Of a stretch of 64,000 nucleotides of DNA, positions 47,790 to 57,194 are shown one piece after another (position 1 is the first letter of the stretch; each line of letters begins with the position of its first letter). The notes below the pieces were generated by a model. It was not told the DNA's origin. It worked only from the letters and a program-made list of their open reading frames with translations, and did not search any database. Origin of the DNA: an uncultured Verrucomicrobiota bacterium (GTDB taxonomy: Bacteria; Verrucomicrobiota; Verrucomicrobiia; Limisphaerales; UBA9464); contig CAIVQH010000041.1 of assembly GCA_903907995.1 (NCBI GenBank), positions 1 through 64,000 on the forward strand, in the 5' to 3' direction. Both the position numbers and the translations under genes were made by a program.

Positions 47790-48584
47790 TCACAGGTTCC
47801 GCTGCCCGCGCTTGGTGATGTAAGCCGTTTCCCGGGTCGGGCTCTCCTTCGACCAGCGACGGCATAGCCGCATGACCCACCAGGGCGCGCTCTTGCCTAC
47901 GTCATTTAGCCAGTTGGCGACGGAGTTCTGCACGTAGCGCGACGCGTCGGACCGCAGCGGCTCCAAGATTGGCTCACCCAGCTCCGGATGTTTCCGAAGT
48001 TCGGGAATGGGCGGACACCAGACGCCTTTGGGACGCGTGATTTCCGAGGCAAAGCGCCGGAGATTTGGCGAGGCTTCGTGACTCCAGGCGGCCAGGAGGA
48101 CGAGCGCTTTATCCAGTTCGGCGATCACACAGGTCCGCAAGCCCATCCACGCCATCTCACGCACGCCGGGGTGCGCGTCATCGGCAAAGGGCCGGATCAG
48201 TTCCAGCCGCCGAGTCAGCGGCAGCTCCGGCACCAGGCCGACCGCCAGTGCCGCCCATTGACGTACCGTGTCGGACCCGTGCCCGCCAAAACGGCCAATG
48301 GCCTTCTCCCCATGGGTTTCCAACAACAGGCGGGCACCGGTGTTCATCCGCTCTTTCACCCCGCCCGTCCGCAGTTCATTGGCCCGGTGGGAATGTTCCG
48401 GCACGACATGTTGCCAGAGCTCGCCGAAATCCATCGCCAGCCATTCCGCCAACGTACGGGCCTCGATTTCTCCTCGGTTCATCTGCCGCAGGATCTCGGG
48501 CGGGATATCCTCGCGCCGTCGCGCTCCTTTGCGGGGAGCGGTTGCCCCCACTTTAACTTCCACAGGTTTGTTGGCAGCGGGCAT
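47790..48584 (-). CDS. DNA alkylation repair protein (AlkC/AlkD-like HEAT fold)
   Basis: A 264-residue HEAT-like helical protein. The core shows repeats around GGHGSDTVRQWAALAVGLV, FADDAHPGVREMAWMGLRT and SHEASPNLRRFASEITRPKG, then the typical LRSDASRYVQNSVANWLNDV and the end WSKESPTRETAYITKRGQRNL seen in DNA-alkylation-repair (AlkD/AlkC superfamily) proteins. A basic N-terminal leader (APRKGARRRED) precedes it. Family members remove bulky or 3-methyl purine adducts. The call is good at the superfamily level. Confidence 0.85.
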   Translation of the reverse strand: MPAANKPVEVKVGATAPRKGARRREDIPPEILRQMNRGEIEARTLAEWLAMDFGELWQHVVPEHSHRANELRTGGVKERMNTGARLLLETHGEKAIGRFGGHGSDTVRQWAALAVGLVPELPLTRRLELIRPFADDAHPGVREMAWMGLRTCVIAELDKALVLLAAWSHEASPNLRRFASEITRPKGVWCPPIPELRKHPELGEPILEPLRSDASRYVQNSVANWLNDVGKSAPWWVMRLCRRWSKESPTRETAYITKRGQRNL

Positions 48585-48601
48585 GGGTTACCGGGCCGGC
48601 C

Positions 48602-50050
48602 CTATGCCAGAATGTCCTGGATGACTTTTCCGGCGATCCCGGTCAGGCGCACATCGAGCCCCTGGAACTTCACCGACAGCCGGGTGTGCTCGATGCCGAG
48701 GGTGCGGAGCATCGTCGCGTGCAGGTCGTGCACATCGATGGGTTTCTCGACGGCCGCGTACCCCAACTCGTCCGTCGCGCCATAGACCATGCCGGGTTTG
48801 ATGCCGCCACCGCACATCCACACCGTGAAGCCGGCGTTGTGATGGTCGCGACCGTCGCCGCCCTGGCTCATGGGCGTGCGCCCGAACTCGCCGGCCCACA
48901 CGATCAGCGTGTCCTTCAGCATATCGCGCTGCTTCAGGTCAGTGATGAGCGCCATGCACGCGCGGTCCACCTCGGTGGCCTTGAACTCGATCCCCTGCTT
49001 CACACCGCCGTGGTGGTCCCAGTCCTTGTGATAGAGTTGCATGAAGCGCACCCCACGCTCGGCCAGCCGCCGGGCCAGCAGGCAGTTCGAGGCAAACGAT
49101 CCGTCACCGGGTTTGCAGCCGTAAAGGTCGAGCACGCTCGCCGGCTCCTTCGACAGGTCCACCAGCTCCGGCACACTCGCCTGCATCTGGAAGGCGAGTT
49201 CGTACTGGGCGATGCGGGTCGCGATCTCCGGGTCATCCACGATGGCGTCGTGCTGCCGGTTGAGGGCATTGATCGTCTGCACCACGTCGCCCTGCTGCTC
49301 GCGCGAAACGCCCTTGGGCGTGCCCAAGTAAAGGACGGGATCGCCCTTGCTCCGGAGCTGGACGCCTTGGAAGCGGCTCGGCAGAAAGCCCGGCGCCCAC
49401 TGCCGCGCCGCGATGGGCTGGTTCTGCCCGCCACGTCCCAGCGAGGTCAGCACCACAAAGCCCGGCAGATCCGCCGCTTCCGAACCGAGGCCGTAGGTGA
49501 TCCAGGCGCCCATGCTCGGACGGCCCGCAATCTGGGAGCCGGTGTTCATGAACATGTGGGCCGGATCGTGGTTGATCGCCTCGCTGGTCATCGAGCGCAC
49601 CCAGCAGATGTCGTCCGCCACCGAACCGATCTGCGGGAACAGCTCGCACAGCTCGATGCCCATCTTGCCGAACGGCCGAAACTTATGCTGCGGGCCGTAG
49701 CACAGGAGCTTCTGCCCCTGGAGCTGCGCGATCTGTTTGCCCTGGGTAAAGGACTCCGGCATCGGCTGCCCGTGCATCGCCGCAAGCTTCGGCTTGGGAT
49801 CGAAGGTTTCCAGATGCGACGGCCCGCCGGCCATGGTGAGCCAGATAACCCGCTTGGCCTTGGCGGGAAAATGGAGCGGATTGACCACCCCGGCCCACTT
49901 GTCGGGCTTGCCAGTCGCCGCCGCCACCATCCCGGGTTTCAGCAGCGAGGCGAGCGCCAGTGCGCCGACGCCCTGGGAGGCCCGCCCGAGAAACACGCGC
50001 CGCGTCTGCTGCTGACGGAAGAACTGACGGAGTTCGGAAGAAAGGTTCAT
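48602..50050 (-). CDS. DUF1501 family protein with Tat signal
   Basis: A 482-residue protein with Tat-type export signal QQTRRVFLGRASQGVGALAL. The DUF1501 (sulfatase/alkaline-phosphatase-like fold) shows RVIWLTMAGGPSHLETFDPK, RGVRFMQLYHKDWDHHGG and DTLIVWAGEFGRTPMSQGGD, with HNAGFTVWMCGGGIKPGMVYG. This family is a hallmark of Planctomycetes and Verrucomicrobia and nearly always sits beside a PSD1 cytochrome gene, as here (three bases apart). The joint function, possibly breakdown of complex polysaccharides, is not established. Confidence 0.92.
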   Translation of the reverse strand: MNLSSELRQFFRQQQTRRVFLGRASQGVGALALASLLKPGMVAAATGKPDKWAGVVNPLHFPAKAKRVIWLTMAGGPSHLETFDPKPKLAAMHGQPMPESFTQGKQIAQLQGQKLLCYGPQHKFRPFGKMGIELCELFPQIGSVADDICWVRSMTSEAINHDPAHMFMNTGSQIAGRPSMGAWITYGLGSEAADLPGFVVLTSLGRGGQNQPIAARQWAPGFLPSRFQGVQLRSKGDPVLYLGTPKGVSREQQGDVVQTINALNRQHDAIVDDPEIATRIAQYELAFQMQASVPELVDLSKEPASVLDLYGCKPGDGSFASNCLLARRLAERGVRFMQLYHKDWDHHGGVKQGIEFKATEVDRACMALITDLKQRDMLKDTLIVWAGEFGRTPMSQGGDGRDHHNAGFTVWMCGGGIKPGMVYGATDELGYAAVEKPIDVHDLHATMLRTLGIEHTRLSVKFQGLDVRLTGIAGKVIQDILA

Positions 50051-50053
50051 GGC

Positions 50054-53000
50054 TCAGGAGCGGGTGATGGTCTCGTGCAGGTTCAGCAACGCGCGGGCAA
50101 CGTCGGTCCACGCCGCCAGCTCGGCGGCGTCGAGTTCCGGCGGGACGGGCGCGAAACCGGTCTTCAGGTAATCCCTCGCCGCGTCACGGTTCTGACGGAA
50201 TTCTGTCAGGTGCTTTTGCAGCAGCGACCGCAAGGCGGCCAGCTCTTCCGGGCGGGGCTTGCGGGCCAGCGCCTGTTGCCACGCCCACGTAATCCTCTTG
50301 GCCTCGTCGCCGGGGCATTCGCGGAGAATACGCGCTGCCAGGACCCGGGCGGCCTCGACGTAAGTGGGATCATTCAGCAGCACGAGCGCCTGCTGCGGGA
50401 TGTTCGACCGGTTGCGCTCCGCCGCGCACTCCTCGCGGGTCGGCGCATCAAAGGCGAGCATGCTGGGATGCACAAAAGACCGTTGCCACCAGGTGTAGAG
50501 CCCCCGACGGTACTGGTCCGCCTCCTTGCTCGCGTCGTAGGTGCGCTGCGGGAAGTTCAGGTTCTCCCAGTAGCCTTCCGGCTGGTAGGGTCGGACGCTC
50601 GGGCCGCCCACGGTCGGCGCGAGCAACCCGGCCAGTGACAGCGCATTGTCGCGAACCAGCTCCGCCTCCAAACGCCAGCGTCCCTGGCGGGCCAGCAGGC
50701 GGTTGTACGGATCGCGGACCAGCAGTTCGTGCGGGGCCGTGGAAGCCTGGCGGTAGGTGTCGCTCAGCACGATGAGCCGGACCATGTGCTTCAGGTCCCA
50801 GCCGCTGTCCCGAAACTCGCACGCCAGCCAGTCGAGCAGCGCCTGGTTCGGCGGCGGCTCCCCCTGTGCCCCGAGATCATCGAGCACCTTGGACAGGCCC
50901 ATCCCGAAGAACTGCCGCCACAGCCGGTTCATCACCACCCGTGCGGTCAGCGGGTTGTTCGGGTCCACCAGCCAGTTGGCAAGGTCGAGCCGGTTCAACC
51001 GGTGCCCTTCCGTGCGACCGCCATTTTTCACGAGGAAGGCCGGCAACGCGGGCTCCACCTTGTCGCCCGTCTCGATCAGGAAATTTCCACGGGGCAGGAT
51101 GCGCACGGTGCGGGGCTCGTCGTTCCGTTCCGTGATCAGGCAACGAGGCAGACTCGCCACGAAGTCTTCATGGGACTTTTTCGCCTCGGCGAGCCGCTGC
51201 CGCAGGTCGGCCAGTTCGGGCGCCTGCCCCTTGAAGCGGGCGAACAGCTTTTGCTGCTGCTCCGCGTTGCGCGAGGCCGCCGGCAGTTTGAGCAGTTCGG
51301 CGAACTCGCTTCCCGGTGGGGCCACAAAGGGCGCCGTGACCGCCTTCGCCTCGGTGGTGGTGGCCAGCCGGAAGCGACCTAGGTTGTGTCCTCCATCCCC
51401 ATGGTTTTGCTGTAGTTCGATGACCAGCGTTTCGCCGGCCACCAGTGTGAGCGGTTCCTTCAGCTCCAACCGCAGCTGCTGCGGTCGGCCGATTTCGGGC
51501 AGTACCGCCCAGCCGGGTGATTTGCCCTTCGCATCGCCATCAATCGTCGCCGCGGCCGACCAGGCCTTGTAGGGATTTCCTTCGGCCAGCATGGTCTGCT
51601 CGTGCGAGGCGCGAGCCGATTGGAACGAAACCGTTCGCGGGGTGGCGCCCTCGCGCTCGACGCGGCCGACCACTTCGGTCAGCACGAAATTGCCGTTGGC
51701 GGCGCGTCCGGGTCCCTTGGCCGGCAACGAATCATCCGGCAACACTTCCAGCCGCAGGCCGACCACACCCGCGATGACGTTCGTGAAGCGCAACGTGTAG
51801 GTGTCCGTGTCGGGATTCTTGCCGCCGGCCAGCACCGAGCGGTCATCCTTCACCGTCAGGGGTGTGCCGGCCGCCGACTCGGCCTTGGCCGGAGCGAGGG
51901 GCAACCAGAGCGCCTCATTCGCCAGCGCGTCCAGTTGCGCCTGCTGCCATTGGGTGAAAGCCCCGGCCAGTTCCGGATGCGGCCCGGCAAAATCCTGCTG
52001 CAGCCCGTTCGCCGTCTGCTCGCGCTTCGCCAGTTCACGCGCTTGTTCCTCGTTGGGCACCAGCATGCCCGGCTCGCGCCCACCGATGATGGCCTCCTTG
52101 ACATCCGCGAAGACCGCGCCCATCGCATAGAAGTCGCGCTGGAGGATCGGATCGAACTTGTGATCATGGCATTGCGCGCACCCGATGGTCTGCCCGAGCC
52201 ACACCGCGCCGACCGCGCGGACGCGATCGGTCAGATACCGGGCCTCGTAGTCCTTCGGCTGTGCTCCGCCCTCCTCGGTCGTCAGCAGCAGCCGGTTGAA
52301 AGCGGAGGCGACCTTCTGCTCCTGAGTCGGATTGGGCAGCAGATCGCCGGCAAGCTGTTCGCGGGTGAACTGGTCGAAGGGCTTGTTGTCGTTGAAGGCG
52401 CGGATGACGTAATCGCGATACGGCCAGATGTTGCGCGGATTGTCGGAGTGGTACCCGATCGTGTCGGCGAAGCGCACGACATCCAGCCAGCCGATGGCCA
52501 TGCGCTCGCCGTAGTGCGGCGAACTCAGCAACCGCTCCACCAGCCGACGATAGGCTTCAGGCGACCTGTCCTTTTCGAACGCGGCAATTTCCTTGGGTTT
52601 CGGTGGCAGGCCGACGAGGTCAAAATAAAGTCGCCGCGCCAGCGTCCGGCGATCGGCTTCCGGTGCCGGACGCAGCCCGGCCTCACGCACGCGGGCGCGC
52701 ACCAGAAAATCAATCGCCTGCGCACCGGCCGGAATGACCGGGTTCACCGGCGGGGTGTAGGCCCAGTGCCCCTTGTATTCCGCGCCCTCAGCAATCCAGC
52801 GCCGCAGCATCTCCCGCTGCGCCACCGTCAGGGTCTTGTGCGACTCGTTCGGTGGCATCCGGTCGTCCTCATCGGTCGTGAACAGCCGGCGGACCAGTTC
52901 GCTCTCCTCCGGCTTGCCCGGAACGATGGCGACTTTGCCCGATTTCGCGGGCTTCGTGGCGGCGTCCCGGAGATCCAGCCGCAGCTTGCCCTTGATCTTG

Positions 53001-53167
53001 TTGGTGTCCGGTCCGTGACAGGCAAAGCAGTTGTCCGAGAGCAGCGGCTGCACGTCGTGGTTGAAATCCACTTTGCGCACTGTGACCGCGCCAACGGGTG
53101 CGAGCGCAGCCCAAAGTCCGAGCAGCACCCCGAACAGCAGCCGACCGAGTTGAGTTCCGAAAACCAT
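50054..53167 (-). CDS. PSD1 / planctomycete cytochrome c protein (DUF1549-DUF1553)
   Basis: The start at 53167 gives a signal peptide (MVFGTQLGRLLFGVLLGLWA); the frame reaches 53281 without support. About 1037 residues. An N-terminal cytochrome c-like domain binds haem through LLSDNCFACHGPD and later GKLRLDLRD; DUF1549 follows (YFDLVGLPPKPKEIAAFEKD, RVRAVGAVWLGQTIGCAQCH with a second CxxCH), then a carbohydrate-binding-like middle region and DUF1553 (NRLDLANWLVDPNNPLTARV onward). The pair with DUF1501 points to a shared extracytoplasmic role, with the haem protein perhaps passing electrons. Confidence 0.93.
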   Translation of the reverse strand: MVFGTQLGRLLFGVLLGLWAALAPVGAVTVRKVDFNHDVQPLLSDNCFACHGPDTNKIKGKLRLDLRDAATKPAKSGKVAIVPGKPEESELVRRLFTTDEDDRMPPNESHKTLTVAQREMLRRWIAEGAEYKGHWAYTPPVNPVIPAGAQAIDFLVRARVREAGLRPAPEADRRTLARRLYFDLVGLPPKPKEIAAFEKDRSPEAYRRLVERLLSSPHYGERMAIGWLDVVRFADTIGYHSDNPRNIWPYRDYVIRAFNDNKPFDQFTREQLAGDLLPNPTQEQKVASAFNRLLLTTEEGGAQPKDYEARYLTDRVRAVGAVWLGQTIGCAQCHDHKFDPILQRDFYAMGAVFADVKEAIIGGREPGMLVPNEEQARELAKREQTANGLQQDFAGPHPELAGAFTQWQQAQLDALANEALWLPLAPAKAESAAGTPLTVKDDRSVLAGGKNPDTDTYTLRFTNVIAGVVGLRLEVLPDDSLPAKGPGRAANGNFVLTEVVGRVEREGATPRTVSFQSARASHEQTMLAEGNPYKAWSAAATIDGDAKGKSPGWAVLPEIGRPQQLRLELKEPLTLVAGETLVIELQQNHGDGGHNLGRFRLATTTEAKAVTAPFVAPPGSEFAELLKLPAASRNAEQQQKLFARFKGQAPELADLRQRLAEAKKSHEDFVASLPRCLITERNDEPRTVRILPRGNFLIETGDKVEPALPAFLVKNGGRTEGHRLNRLDLANWLVDPNNPLTARVVMNRLWRQFFGMGLSKVLDDLGAQGEPPPNQALLDWLACEFRDSGWDLKHMVRLIVLSDTYRQASTAPHELLVRDPYNRLLARQGRWRLEAELVRDNALSLAGLLAPTVGGPSVRPYQPEGYWENLNFPQRTYDASKEADQYRRGLYTWWQRSFVHPSMLAFDAPTREECAAERNRSNIPQQALVLLNDPTYVEAARVLAARILRECPGDEAKRITWAWQQALARKPRPEELAALRSLLQKHLTEFRQNRDAARDYLKTGFAPVPPELDAAELAAWTDVARALLNLHETITRS

Positions 53168-53370
53168 GATGAAGAGTGGACGCTGCAACCGTGGCGCAAG
53201 TTCACCCAGAATGCCAAGGGAGGTTTGGGGAAATGGAAGAAGAAACCAATGGGTGGGCGGCTTCCCTGCGAACAATGGCACGATTAGCCTGCGACGCCGT
53301 ACTTTAAACGTCTAACGGCCAGCGTTAGGCATTCAAAACCGAGCGGTCCCCTCTTATGTTCACTTTCGAG

Positions 53371-53587
53371 AATTCTGAAGGAATTCCATCATTTAGCCCA
53401 GGGTTGGCGCAGAGCGCCTACCCTGGGTCATTGTCCAAAAATGCTTTCTACCGCAACGCGGTTGCAGCATGTGTCGTCGGGATTTGATGCGACCCCTTCA
53501 GGGTAGATTCCAATTCCTCAACCTTACCCAGCGTAGCCTGACTTCGTCACGCAACGCTGGGCTGAATGATGAAATCCCTTCGGGATA
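53371..53587. repeat. Inverted pair of hairpin-bearing repeat units (53282-53616 gap)
   Basis: This gene-free gap of about 450 bp between the PSD1 start and thrS holds two diverged copies of one unit facing each other. Unit 1 (53371-53427) reads AATTCTGAAGGAATTC, ATCATTTAGCCCAG and a hairpin CCCAGGGTTGGCGC-AGA-GCGCCTACCCTGGG. Unit 2 (53527-53587, opposite strand) has the matching ATCCCGAAGGGATTTCATC and ATTCAGCCCAGCG with its own stem CCCAGCGT/ACGCTGGG. Between them is another small stem, GCAAC-GCG-GTTGC. I see no gene here. Confidence 0.7.
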
Positions 53588-53616
53588 ATCGCCGCTTCCG
53601 TCCACCTACGTCCAGC

Positions 53617-54723
53617 TTACGCCCTCCGCTCACGGATCGAGGCCAGGATCTCGGCAATAGCTTCCCCCTTCGGCTTCGCGCCGATGTTGCCTTTGCCGTG
53701 GAGGCGGACGCTTACGGCGCCGGCTTCCATGTCGCGGCCGCCGATGACGAGCATCGTGTGGACACGGGCGTGCTCGGCGTCGGAGATCTTGGCCTTCACG
53801 GGGTTTGCGCCGTAATCGCCCTCGACGCGGACGAAGTTGGCGCGCAGTTCGGCGGTGATGGCCCTGGCGTAGTCCACCAGGGCGGCATCGTCGTTGAGCG
53901 TGACCACGCGGACCTGCTCGGGCGCGAGCCAGAGGGGGAAGTTGCCGGCGTAGTGCTCGATCAGGAAGCCGATGAAGCGCTCGTGCGTGCCCAGCGGGGC
54001 GCGGTGGATGCACAGCGGCGTCTTGTCCGTGTTGTCGCGGTCGCGGTACGTGAGGCCGAAGCGCGCGGGCACGGCGAAGTCCACCTGGTTGGTCGCGATC
54101 GTGAACTCGCGGCCGATGGCGCTCCACACCTGCACGTCGATCTTCGGGCCGTAGAAGGCGGCCTCATTGGCCACCTCCACGTAGTTGATGCCCGAGTCGA
54201 TGAGGACCTGGCGGACCATGTCCTCGGTCTTCTTCCAGAGTTCGGGCTCGTTGACGAACTTCTGGCCGAGGCGCGCGGGGTCGTGCGTGCTGAAGCGCAT
54301 CTGGTACTTCTCGATGCCAAAGATCTTGAAGTACTTCAGGTACATGTCGTTCACCGCGCGGAACTCCTCCGCGAACTGCTCGGCGGTGCAGTAGAGGTGC
54401 GCGTCATTCATGTTCATGGCGCGCACGCGCATGAGGCCGAAGAGTTCGCCCGACTGCTCGTAGCGGTAGTTCGTGCCATACTCCGCCAACCGCAGCGGCA
54501 GGTCACGGTAACTGCGCGGCTCCGCCGCAAAAATGCGGTGGTGATGCGGGCAGTTCATGGCTTTGAGGTAATAAACCTCTGGTTCGCCGCACCGCTTTAA
54601 TTGCTCGTATAATGAGGAGCGTTCCTTAAACGCTGCCACAATTTCAACCGGCGCGAATTGGGCATTTATGTGGTCGGCAATCAAATCCAATTGGGCGTCC
54701 GAAAGCATGCTTCCTATGTTCAT
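53617..54723 (-). CDS. thrS: Threonyl-tRNA synthetase, C-terminal piece (motifs 2-3, anticodon domain)
   Basis: From YYLKAMNCPHHHRIFAAEP onward this is ordinary ThrRS: zinc ligands Cys in MNCPHH, His in AMNMNDAH and His in CIHRAPLG; motif 2 YRYEQSGELFGLMRVR; motif 3 GTHERFIGFLIEHYAG; then the anticodon-binding domain (QVRVVTLNDDAALVDYAR). The first 45 or so residues (MNIGSMLSDAQLDLIADHI, then FAPVEIVAAFKERSSLYEQL) are not ThrRS-like and are AT-rich. Starts: ATG at 54723, or ATG at 54708 with AGGAAG close before it. About 368 residues. It lacks motif 1 and the editing domain, which are in the piece at 55783-56820. Confidence 0.85.
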   Translation of the reverse strand: MNIGSMLSDAQLDLIADHINAQFAPVEIVAAFKERSSLYEQLKRCGEPEVYYLKAMNCPHHHRIFAAEPRSYRDLPLRLAEYGTNYRYEQSGELFGLMRVRAMNMNDAHLYCTAEQFAEEFRAVNDMYLKYFKIFGIEKYQMRFSTHDPARLGQKFVNEPELWKKTEDMVRQVLIDSGINYVEVANEAAFYGPKIDVQVWSAIGREFTIATNQVDFAVPARFGLTYRDRDNTDKTPLCIHRAPLGTHERFIGFLIEHYAGNFPLWLAPEQVRVVTLNDDAALVDYARAITAELRANFVRVEGDYGANPVKAKISDAEHARVHTMLVIGGRDMEAGAVSVRLHGKGNIGAKPKGEAIAEILASIRERRA

Positions 54724-55905
54724 GTTAATAAGAGTTTGGCAAACTATTCCATCGCCTTGAGGACTTGAAGGTAGAGGGTCTCGACAATTTTTGCCTGCTG
54801 CGCACCAATTGCCGAATAGTTGTCGAGTCCAGGCGCGGAATTGATCTCGATGATCCAGAATTTTCCCGGAGAATCGCCAATGTCCCATAGATCATAAGAT
54901 CAACACCGCAAAGCCTTAATCCCATGTCTCTCGTAAGCTCAATTGCGATCTTTTTGAATTCGGGGTGTATCCTTTCTGTTACATCAAGCGAATCACCTCC
55001 TGATGAAAGGTTAGCATTGTCTAGCAACGCCAACCTCTCTCCTTTAGGCAGCACTGATTTGAAGTTCAGCTTTGAAAGGCGAAGTTTCAGTGCTATGCGA
55101 TAATCATCCAGCTTAAGTTGCGTGTCCCGTCCAGTCTTCTCGAAGATTCGCTGCTTGTCCTCGAGTAGCTTTAGTATTGTGGATCTGCCATTCCCTGTTA
55201 CAGCAAGCGGTATTCTTTCGTAAGCTGAGATCACCTTGTCATCGAGAACGACAACTCGATAATCTTTTCCTGAGACAAGCTCCTGAACAAGCGCCACGCG
55301 GTCTTTTTTGAAGATTTCCCGCATGCAACGATAGAAATCCTTTTTGTTGTTCGCTTTAGCAACACACTGGCCCTGACTTTTGCTGTTTGGCTTAACGATT
55401 ACAGGAAAGCCAAGGGATTGAGCGTATCGGTAGGCTGCATGAATGTCACGCTTCGAACCGATTCCAACCGCAAACTCTTCGGAGAAGAATGTTTTTCCCC
55501 TGATTCCAGGATAACCCATCTTGCTCATGAAATAATTTGCATAGTCCTTGTCCCTAGCAATTTCAGATGAGCCTAGAGGATTGAGGTCTAGGCTTGAGGC
55601 CCGGAAGTATCGCCTCACCCTGCTTTTGTATGTGACCTGGCCGGCAAAACCAAATTCAGGATCAAGGATTACTTTTGCGCCGATTTTTGGGGCTACCTTT
55701 TTCAGCAGAACGCTAACAAGATTTGTTTTCAACCGGATTGCCTTTCCAAAATGAGGTTATACTTTTAAAAATTATAATTGCTTCAAATATTTCCAGCATC
55801 AGGTTTGGGACCTGAATTTCGTCCTGCAAGGCTCTTTGCGTATTCAAGCAGCGAACTTTCCGTTTCGGCGATGCGCGCCTCGATTTTGGCCCGCTGCTCA
55901 CGGCA
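54591..55905. mobile_element. AT-richer insertion that splits thrS (boundaries approximate)
   Basis: Between the last ThrRS-like residues of the N-terminal piece (SMFPPMEMDE, ending near 55906) and the first of the C-terminal piece (VYYLKAMNCP, near 54575) lie about 1.3 kb of DNA with much lower GC and different codon use. It carries one ATP-grasp gene, a tail on the first piece and a leader on the second. I found no transposase, integrase, clear terminal inverted repeat or target duplication. Transfer is inferred from composition and position; the true ends could differ by tens of bases. Confidence 0.6.
54744..55732 (-). pseudogene. ATP-grasp ligase gene with a one-base frameshift
   Basis: The first about 280 residues (from TTG at 55732) form an ATP-grasp enzyme like the ligase part of cyanophycin synthetase or GshAB: YAQSLGFPVIVKPNSKSQG, VALVQELVSGKDYRVVVLDD, LLDNANLSSGGDSLDVT and MGLRLCGVDLMIYG. 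After that, at CCC 54884-54886, the frame is lost. In the next frame the expected end is present: DIGDSPGKFWIIEINSAPGL, then DNYSAIGAQQAKIVETLYL and a TAG at 54744-54746, with the Mg-binding E and N. Restoring one G would give a whole protein of about 329 residues. The substrate is unknown; it may be a recent mutation or a sequencing error. Confidence 0.8.
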
Positions 55906-56820
55906 TTCATCCATCTCCATCGGCGGAAACATCGAGTCCGCATAGTATGGCAGGTGTCCTGACGTCTTATACATCTTCTCCTTGGCCAGGTGCGGCGTCT
56001 TGACGCGCACGTAGCCGGCCTGGAATTCCGTCTCCTTCGCCAGCTTCTCCAGTTCTTCGACCAGCACCGTGCCCTTGGGCAGCCACAGCGCGAGGCCCGG
56101 CCCGACGTATTCGGCGTCGAAGGCGAACAGGCCCATCTCCGCGCCGATCTTGCGGTGGTCGCGCTTCTTGGCCTCCTCCTGCATCGTCACCCATTTGTCC
56201 AGCTCCTCCTTGTTCTTGAAGGCCGTGCCGTAGAGGCGTTGGAGCTGCGGGTTCTTCTCGTTCCCACGGAAGTAGGCGCTGGCGACCTTCAGCATCTTGA
56301 TGCCGCCGGGCTTCACGTTGCCCGTGCGCATGACGTGCGGTCCGGCGCAGAGGTCCACGAACTCGCCGTTCTGGTAGAAGCTGATCGCCTCGCCCTCGGG
56401 GATGTCGCCGAGCCGCTCGACCTTGAACTTCTGGCCCTTGGCCGCGAAGTAGGCCAGGGCCTCTTCACGCGTCTTGATGGACTTCTCGAAGACCTGGTTC
56501 TCCTTGGTGACCTTGCGCATCTCCTCCTCGATCTTCGGGAAATCGTCGGGCGAGAAGCGGTGCTTCAGGTCGAAGTCGTAGTAGAAGCCCTCCTCCGTCG
56601 GCGGACCGATATCGAGCAGGGCATCGGGCCAGAGGCGCAGCACGGCCGTGGCGAGGATGTGCGCGCAGGAGTGCCGCAGGCGCATCAGCTCGTCCATCTG
56701 GCCGCGCTGGTCGAGGGTCTTGCGCTGCACGTCGGTCTTGGCGGCCTCGAAGTCGGGCTTCGGGGCCGGGGGCTGCGCTTGCGGCTGGGACTCGTCAGGC
56801 TTGGATTCGTCGTTTTGCAT
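55783..56820 (-). CDS. thrS: Threonyl-tRNA synthetase, N-terminal piece (editing domain, motif 1)
   Basis: The ATG at 56820 (MQNDESKPDESQPQAQPPAP) is chosen; a TTG at 56847 is possible. After a Pro/Gln-rich leader comes the editing domain with its RHSCAHILA (HxxxH, residues 50-54) and DLCAGPHV motifs, then the catalytic domain up to motif 1 (YVRVKTPHLAKEKMYKTSGH) and SMFPPMEMDE. A tail, CREQRAKIEARIAETESSLL and about 20 more residues, is not ThrRS-like and ends at a TGA. There is no N-terminal TGS domain. The rest of the enzyme is encoded at 53617-54723, in the same frame, beyond the ATP-grasp gene. Confidence 0.85.
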   Translation of the reverse strand: MQNDESKPDESQPQAQPPAPKPDFEAAKTDVQRKTLDQRGQMDELMRLRHSCAHILATAVLRLWPDALLDIGPPTEEGFYYDFDLKHRFSPDDFPKIEEEMRKVTKENQVFEKSIKTREEALAYFAAKGQKFKVERLGDIPEGEAISFYQNGEFVDLCAGPHVMRTGNVKPGGIKMLKVASAYFRGNEKNPQLQRLYGTAFKNKEELDKWVTMQEEAKKRDHRKIGAEMGLFAFDAEYVGPGLALWLPKGTVLVEELEKLAKETEFQAGYVRVKTPHLAKEKMYKTSGHLPYYADSMFPPMEMDECREQRAKIEARIAETESSLLEYAKSLAGRNSGPKPDAGNI

Positions 56821-56847
56821 CGGAAAAGGGGGGCGAAAATTTAACAA

Positions 56848-57001
56848 CTAAGGCGCGAAGGCGCGAAGACCGGACAGAAAATGAATTTGGAAAACAGGAA
56901 AAGAAACGCCTTCGTCCTGCTTTCCTGTTTTCCAAATTAAATTTTCTTCTCTGCTCATTCCGGCTTTTCGTTTCTTCGCGTCTTAGCGTCTTCGTTGTTC
57001 A
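56848..57001. repeat. Nested inverted repeats upstream of thrS (56848-57194 gap)
   Basis: The core is a perfect 18-bp palindrome: AATTTGGAAAACAGGAAA (56884-56901) and its reverse complement at 56921-56938. Outside it a second, looser pair occurs: AACAACTAAGGCGCGAAG near 56843-56869 and, in opposite orientation, CTTCGCGTCTTAGCGTCTTC near 56975-57001. The rest of the gap to 57194 holds a stem at 57057-57084 but no gene. Since thrS reads away from here, its promoter should lie in or next to this block. Confidence 0.7.
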
Positions 57002-57056
57002 TTCAGTGTCTCGGGAAACAAAAACGCCCCGGACCGGTGCAGGTGCGAGGCGTGAG

Positions 57057-57084
57057 GCGTCCGGCAGCAACGGGCTGCGGACGC
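57057..57084 (-). terminator. GCGTCCG/CGGACGC hairpin, possible terminator
   Basis: GCGTCCG-G-CAGC pairs with GCTG-CGGACGC around a short loop, about 110 bases after the stop of the PEP-CTERM gene on the minus strand. No T-tract; weak support. Confidence 0.3.
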
Positions 57085-57194
57085 TAGGCGGTAGTCGTCG
57101 TGCTCTGGGCAACGGAGATCACAGCCCGAATGAAGCCGGAAGCGGGCCTTTCAGGCAACGGGATTTTGCAGGCCGCCTGCCTGCCCCATGCGCC

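Follow-up and report, generated by a model that had tools for sequence, protein, structure and literature searches.

Aminoacyl-tRNA synthetases are essential and normally form a single chain across the class II catalytic domain, and in the archaeal threonyl-tRNA synthetase (ThrRS) pairs, which place the catalytic and editing functions on separate proteins, the cut falls between whole domains. Here we describe a ThrRS gene, thrS, whose work is likewise shared by two proteins but which is cut inside the class II catalytic domain, in a 64,000-nucleotide stretch of DNA (hereafter the window, i.e. positions 1 to 64,000 of contig CAIVQH010000041.1, assembly GCA_903907995.1) from an uncultured Verrucomicrobiota bacterium of the lineage Limisphaerales; UBA9464. 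Closest to it among known systems is nrdA of phage Aeh1, a split gene (nrdA-a / mobE / nrdA-b) described as having a homing endonuclease in the break and a fully active split NrdA (PMC2988022). As in that account, and in other phage genes that free-standing homing endonucleases have split, the gene of an essential enzyme is interrupted by coding DNA and two chains must reassemble. The locus differs from Aeh1 as described there in that it concerns a cellular tRNA synthetase, is found in at least 11 families and holds different cargo each time, with no homing endonuclease of the mobE kind either in the cargo of the window, an ATP-grasp gene, or in the cargo open reading frames (ORFs) scanned with Pfam (40 of 45 selected by hand). 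Similarly, the mitochondrial cox2 of Campsomeris, split into cox2a and cox2b (PMC5374615), is a case of insertional fission in which an essential gene has become two complementary genes separated by ORFs; it differs in being confined to a single animal lineage, in being mitochondrial and in its proposed homing nuclease, and its abstract reports neither moving docking ends nor varied cargo.

Both ThrRS reading frames lie on the minus strand of the window. The N-half (55783-56820, 345 aa) carries the editing domain (tRNA_SAD) and class II motif 1 before ending in a tail and a stop codon, and the C-half (53617-54708, starting at the ATG at 54708 or alternatively at 54723) carries motif 2, motif 3 and the anticodon-binding domain (tRNA-synt_2b, HGTP_anticodon). 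They match positions 1-255 and 255-551 of the bacterial ThrRS model TIGR00418 with 238 and 338 bits, respectively; neither alone reaches the cut-off of 383.65, but the summed score of 570 exceeds it, and the catalytic, editing and anticodon-binding regions are then all there. The NCBIfam scan also returned a weak match to NF011500, a Ser-tRNA(Thr) hydrolase, and a TGS domain was matched neither in the two halves nor in the three unsplit relatives scanned (L138, L160 and L190). When aligned with the Staphylococcus aureus ThrRS structure 1nyq, the N-half runs to residue 327 and the C-half begins at residue 323, i.e. the halves tile the enzyme and nothing of it is lost at the break. What does not belong to the ThrRS core is the last stretch of the N-half, a tail of about 40 residues (55783-55905 with the stop codon, minus strand), and the first of the C-half, a head of 45 to 50 residues (54574-54708, minus strand, 45 aa from the ATG at 54708). 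Between the two cores lie 1332 bp (54574-55905) with a GC content of 46 %, compared with 64 % in the N core, and this segment contains the ATP-grasp gene. The initial annotation, which had reported a thrS split between motifs 1 and 2 by about 1.3 kb of AT-richer DNA with almost nothing of the enzyme missing, is therefore borne out by the TIGR00418 matches, the GC content, the Pfam assignment and the tiling. The sequence features of insertional fission into genes in pieces are present, i.e. one ancestral gene, two complete frames, foreign DNA between them and no intact copy: the search for a second thrS that the same annotation had proposed found none in the whole 5.1-Mb draft assembly (5,109,158 bases in 60 contigs, 95.67 % complete), the three remaining matches all scoring below 53 bits.

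The interpretation we favour, at a probability of roughly 0.77, is that of a natural two-chain ThrRS whose halves dock via a helical domain, with a segment made up of tail, cargo and head that has moved between lineages. The nearest relatives, with which a comparison had also been suggested, show exactly where this segment lies. G003, a member of the same genus with an unsplit thrS (locus L160), is colinear with the window over 48002-54573 at 91.6 % and over 55905-57181 at 87.4 % identity, with more colinear blocks up to 60756. The edges of colinearity coincide with the break, since 54573 is the first base of the YYLKAMNCP motif of the C core and 55905 comes after the last codon of the N core. 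At this site G003 has a 186-bp insert in frame, and given the colinear flanks the tail-cargo-head segment therefore occupies the place of that insert; apart from the segment, the two thrS genes are 97 % identical.

Selection on the two halves also matches that on unsplit thrS. Between the window and G003, the N-half has a dN of 0.030 and a dS of 0.260 (dN/dS of about 0.12; 21 non-synonymous and 44 synonymous changes), and the C-half a dN of 0.008 and a dS of 0.223 (dN/dS of about 0.04; 6 and 42 changes). Across the split loci (136 pairs for the N-half and 91 for the C-half) the median dN/dS is 0.144 and 0.149, respectively, and across 18 chosen unsplit loci, using the pairs with a dS below 2 (122 and 137 of 153), it is 0.147 and 0.152. 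Such unrelaxed selection in both halves is hard to square with a dead gene. That the split thrS is a pseudogene, with a functional thrS in the few percent left unassembled, would fit a completeness of 95.67 %, which leaves room for a missing gene, but both halves are open with their recognised motifs, the comparison with G003 shows no relaxation, and no thrS match over the cut-off was found in any of the 17 further split genomes, nine of which are at least 90 % complete. We consider a dead second copy very improbable.

The split is not confined to the window. A search of 320 genomes of the order with an alignment of seven heads and the adjacent core, in which 270 genomes gave any match, identified the full split-type head in 24 genomes from 11 families, all at 139 bits or more, the next genome scoring 104. 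In 19 of these a single contig holds both halves, with gaps of 823 to 8392 bp; in three of the remaining five (G052, G135 and G296) they lie on different contigs, the locus of G262 is truncated by contig ends, and G149 gives an ambiguous picture. Beyond this set, four genomes (L134, L135 with a Spartobacteria title, L136 with a Terrimicrobiaceae title and L137 with a Chthoniobacter title, the higher-taxon names being taken from record titles) carry a C-half whose head is homologous but which has no N-half inside the fetched flank; the N-half lies on another contig and ends in a homologous tail. In G324 the head of the C-half is uncertain, and no N-half was found. In a phylum-wide sample of 387 genomes the full head occurred only in G000 and G090; the split is therefore rare outside the order, the four genomes above having come from named records and not from this sample. 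The initial annotation considered that a natural split at this place, with a ligase gene in the break, would be new. The split itself is not unique, its head recurring in 24 of the 320 genomes; no ThrRS cut within the catalytic domain was found among open-licence PubMed Central papers.

This recurrence also bears on the quality of the assembly. A fragment of another organism's split thrS could have been stitched into an ordinary thrS by an assembly or binning fault, since the window comes from a 60-contig draft and none of the other genomes among the 50 of its family carries the head. Nevertheless, the same anatomy is found in 23 other assemblies, the DNA beside the junctions is unlike that of the compared split relatives, so that a jump over shared k-mers is not obvious, and a real split thrS would still be required as donor. 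Such a fault is highly unlikely in our estimate. Among the three options originally offered for this locus, i.e. a two-chain enzyme, a dead copy or an assembly fault, the first is best supported, given the recurrent split, the homologous tails and heads, the unrelaxed selection and the lack of a second thrS, while the other two have fared poorly. Overall, a natural and recurrent two-chain ThrRS is well supported at the level of sequence. As a warning for annotation pipelines, split genes of this kind are easily labelled as pseudogenes or assembly errors, and thrS is a common marker gene.

Neither do the gaps favour a single chain made across the cargo by ribosome bypassing, RNA splicing or protein splicing with a split intein, which we regard as the least likely explanation of all. 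While the two halves of the window happen to share one frame, with stop codons within the insert, the gaps of the 19 loci fall into all three frames (6, 11 and 2 loci), several genomes have their halves on different contigs, and Pfam scans of the two halves and the 40 cargo ORFs found no intein or intron family (Rfam lying outside this search).

Random read-through does not explain the tail and head, because homologues occupy the same place in other genomes, as seen in alignments of seven tails and of the heads. In addition, the heads resemble the C-terminal part of the inserts of fused relatives (hhalign probability 93 %, E 2.6e-7). An AlphaFold2 model of the fused relative L138 predicts its insert (residues 270-348) as three helices (271-295, 305-316 and 324-342), the outer ones with confidence, and a model of the C-half of the window predicts two head helices (9-20 and 26-45). 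Foldseek returned ThrRS structures as top matches, as expected, which carries no information on docking. From these models we infer that the split probably cuts the loop after the first helix of the insert and that tail and head may still pack together. Unsplit relatives carry a fast-changing and mostly helical insert in frame, at the turn that separates motif 1 from motif 2; where thrS is split, its first helix would have become the tail of the N-half and its last two the head of the C-half, with other genes in between. Packing of the tail helix on the head helices would then bring the strands of motif 1 and motif 2 together.

Several observations weigh against this interpretation. The tails match the start of the fused inserts only weakly (hhalign probability 10 %, E 0.0032), the L138 model is poor globally (pTM 0.47, with residues 351-406 below 50), and that of the C-half of the window is poorer still (mean pLDDT 57). 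The tail and head are less constrained than the halves, with median dN/dS values of 0.45 and 0.46, respectively. The split was seen in fragmented draft genomes and in no complete one, and G149, which has a head-type C-half together with an N-half that continues in the same frame into the beginning of the C-region at a contig end, may be mixed or contain an unsplit copy. Scanning the window region for promoters gave no consensus promoter on the strand of the genes and a single site on the opposite strand, as by chance. Shared ancestry accounts for part of the correlation between tails and heads given below, and that the two chains would meet and be active is what we infer from the sequences.

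As for expression, the two halves and the cargo of the window are arranged as three genes on one strand with spacers of 50 bp and then about 20 to 35 bp, and since no promoter-like site lies on that strand, an operon is the likelier arrangement. In seven other loci (L036, L044, L088, L092, L095, L098 and L105) the 5' leader of the C-half is similar despite different cargo, which suggests that there the C-half carries its own start signals.

The history of the split can be approached through the unsplit relatives. A search for thrS in the window genome and 95 related genomes revealed extra sequence at the same point in many of them. Among 77 loci retrieved with both halves, 19 are split and the other 58 have a reading frame that continues across the site, with in-frame inserts of 2 to 239 residues. 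These inserts are wholly different even between genus-mates whose cores are about 90 % identical. A core tree of 69 thrS sequences with the insert excluded (12 split and 57 unsplit; 8 of the 77 loci were dropped as too short or interrupted) groups the window with the unsplit G003 at an SH-aLRT of 99. On this tree the split label requires 10 changes, at least five of them forced by starred branches, close to the 11.3 obtained with shuffled labels (81 to 83 of 500 being as low). With five long-branch rows removed, eight changes are needed and a single clade of the 12 split rows is rejected (p-AU 7.8e-40), as is one of the 11 rows without the window (6.3e-6).

An ancestral split that was re-fused many times, without any horizontal movement, would account for tails and heads that are homologous across distant lineages and for the correlation of tail and N-core identities (rho 0.446), and change counts on the tree cannot separate gain from loss. 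We nevertheless consider it unlikely: the window sits in a genus and family that are otherwise unsplit where scored (46 of the 50 genomes of the family gave a match), its segment is AT-rich with an ATP-grasp gene for which the other 95 relatives offer no strong homologue, and the unsplit inserts are unrelated even among genus-mates, unlike what repeated re-fusion of one tail and one head would leave. Mobility of the middle segment is instead supported by its exact replacement of the insert in the window and by the scattered history on the tree. Across the split loci, the identities of tail and head correlate with a rho of 0.595 (1 of 2000 permutations as high; some rows partial), compared with 0.441 for N with C core (17 of 2000), 0.446 for N core with tail (11 of 2000) and 0.294 for C core with head (88 of 2000). 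Read most plainly, these sequence comparisons mean that tail and head move or evolve as a pair, in part independently of the core. Transfer of the tail-cargo-head segment between lineages would most simply occur by recombination through the conserved flanking parts of thrS, and in the window it would have replaced the in-frame insert. Viral contigs gave three loci in the head search, all matching the ThrRS core alone and none with a head.

The cargo of the segment is interchangeable, differing from locus to locus and often consisting of defence or toxin-antitoxin genes, as judged from the ORF tables of the 19 loci, the Pfam scans and a PADLOC search of 30 of 46 cargo ORFs that included the window. 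Restriction-modification is represented by an AccI-type system in G090, the same type of methylase in G263, a type II methylase with a restriction enzyme in G130, methylases in G290 and, with weaker matches and next to a HATPase, in G144. Other loci hold an OLD/Gabija-like ATPase with DUF2130 (G093), DarT-DarG (G115), an NTase-substrate-binding/Polbeta pair (G123), a PIN protein (G095) and a weak AbiGi-like protein (G285), the latter together with a histone-deacetylase-like protein, which is not defence-like. Also not defence-like are the secreted-looking proteins of G069, which have no Pfam matches, PRiA4_ORF3 in G077 and G281, and DUF7309/DUF6930 in G154. In five genomes (G152, G198, G261, G262 and G296) a DUF5615-like gene ends immediately before the head, the DUF5615 match being below the family cut-off in G152 and absent in G198. 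In G152 and G198 it is preceded by a DUF433 gene, and in G198 this pair fills the entire gap of 823 bp; DUF433 is described as the antitoxin family of PIN-DUF433 (COG2442) VapBC pairs (PMC3834315).

At an E-value of at most 0.001, PADLOC matched 16 of the 30 cargo ORFs and none of 18 flank ORFs (20 drawn from 29; Fisher 8e-5), and at 1e-10 it matched 9 of the 30 (Fisher 0.018 versus the flanks). Since, among the cargo ORFs of other genomes, the first nine were picked as defence-looking and size limits differ, this test is biased and the enrichment of defence genes is suggestive. In its variable cargo with restriction-modification, OLD/Gabija-like, DarTG and DUF433 pairs, the segment resembles defence islands and addictive toxin-antitoxin modules as characterised in the same source (PMC3834315). 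Known defence islands lie between genes or at gene ends, whereas here the cargo is inside an essential gene that is apparently still used as two chains.

It is tempting to speculate that the segment is a mobile cassette that lodges in an essential gene via docking ends of its own, i.e. the tail and the head, which would together rebuild a two-chain enzyme. Because the ends of such a cassette would be parts of the enzyme, the host could not drop it by simple deletion, and thrS would become a protected berth for exchanged defence and toxin-antitoxin genes, perhaps one kept for them. We hold this idea tentatively, at somewhat less than even odds. If the segment truly travels with its cargo, an essential gene can harbour foreign DNA, defence and toxin-antitoxin genes included, that is not easily lost, and our data suggest that moving DNA can lodge within an essential gene without destroying it. 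For the enzyme itself, a recurrent and apparently functional cut in the class II domain would mean that a core translation enzyme can exist as two docked chains, and the split loci would provide numerous natural instances of a divided enzyme of the kind that synthetic biologists otherwise have to engineer.

The ATP-grasp gene of the window (54744-55732, minus strand) matches RimK-like ATP-grasp in Pfam and, in NCBIfam, models for cyanophycin synthetase and GshF-like proteins, all far below their cut-offs. No strong homologue, and one weak match, was found in the other 95 related genomes, and PADLOC gave no match for it. The initial annotation was right that such a gene is inserted here, with the correction that its frame is broken once near 54879-54889, and the 3' end down to 54744 reads on in another frame. 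A real pseudogene and a base-call error are both possible explanations for this break near the 3' end. The weight formerly given to a ligase gene in the break is not upheld, as it is one among many cargoes, without a strong homologue in the relatives and frame-broken; the gene appears incidental to the split. A functional tie to ThrRS was considered and dropped, given that the cargo differs at each locus and given the same lack of strong homologues, the missing PADLOC match and the broken frame.

Some further observations concern the site itself. Among unsplit relatives, the length and sequence of the insert are hypervariable, e.g. in L051-L054 from the genus of the window, as if under diversifying pressure or frequent exchange. 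Four unsplit loci from four families (L041, L042, L109 and L116, in G076, G058, G273 and G137, respectively) have a domain of about 210-240 aa resembling REP-associated tyrosine transposases in frame at the site, an assignment based on NF047646 at its cut-off for L041 and on Y1_Tnp in L190, which is from the same genome as L042. Between the halves of the split thrS of G261 (L087:1147-4828) there are three further copies of the N-end and/or tail, 82-96 % identical between copies, with a head remnant abutting one of them, and G130 (L090:3764-3982) has another head, together with the beginning of the C-half, at 88 % identity. These stacked remnants of N-end, tail and head in L087 and L090 look as if left by successive insertions. 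Fragments of the C-half are also found downstream of thrS, i.e. downstream of the split gene in G154 (L089) at 97 % identity, and in G144 (L092, split) and G073 (L055, unsplit) at 73-85 % identity.

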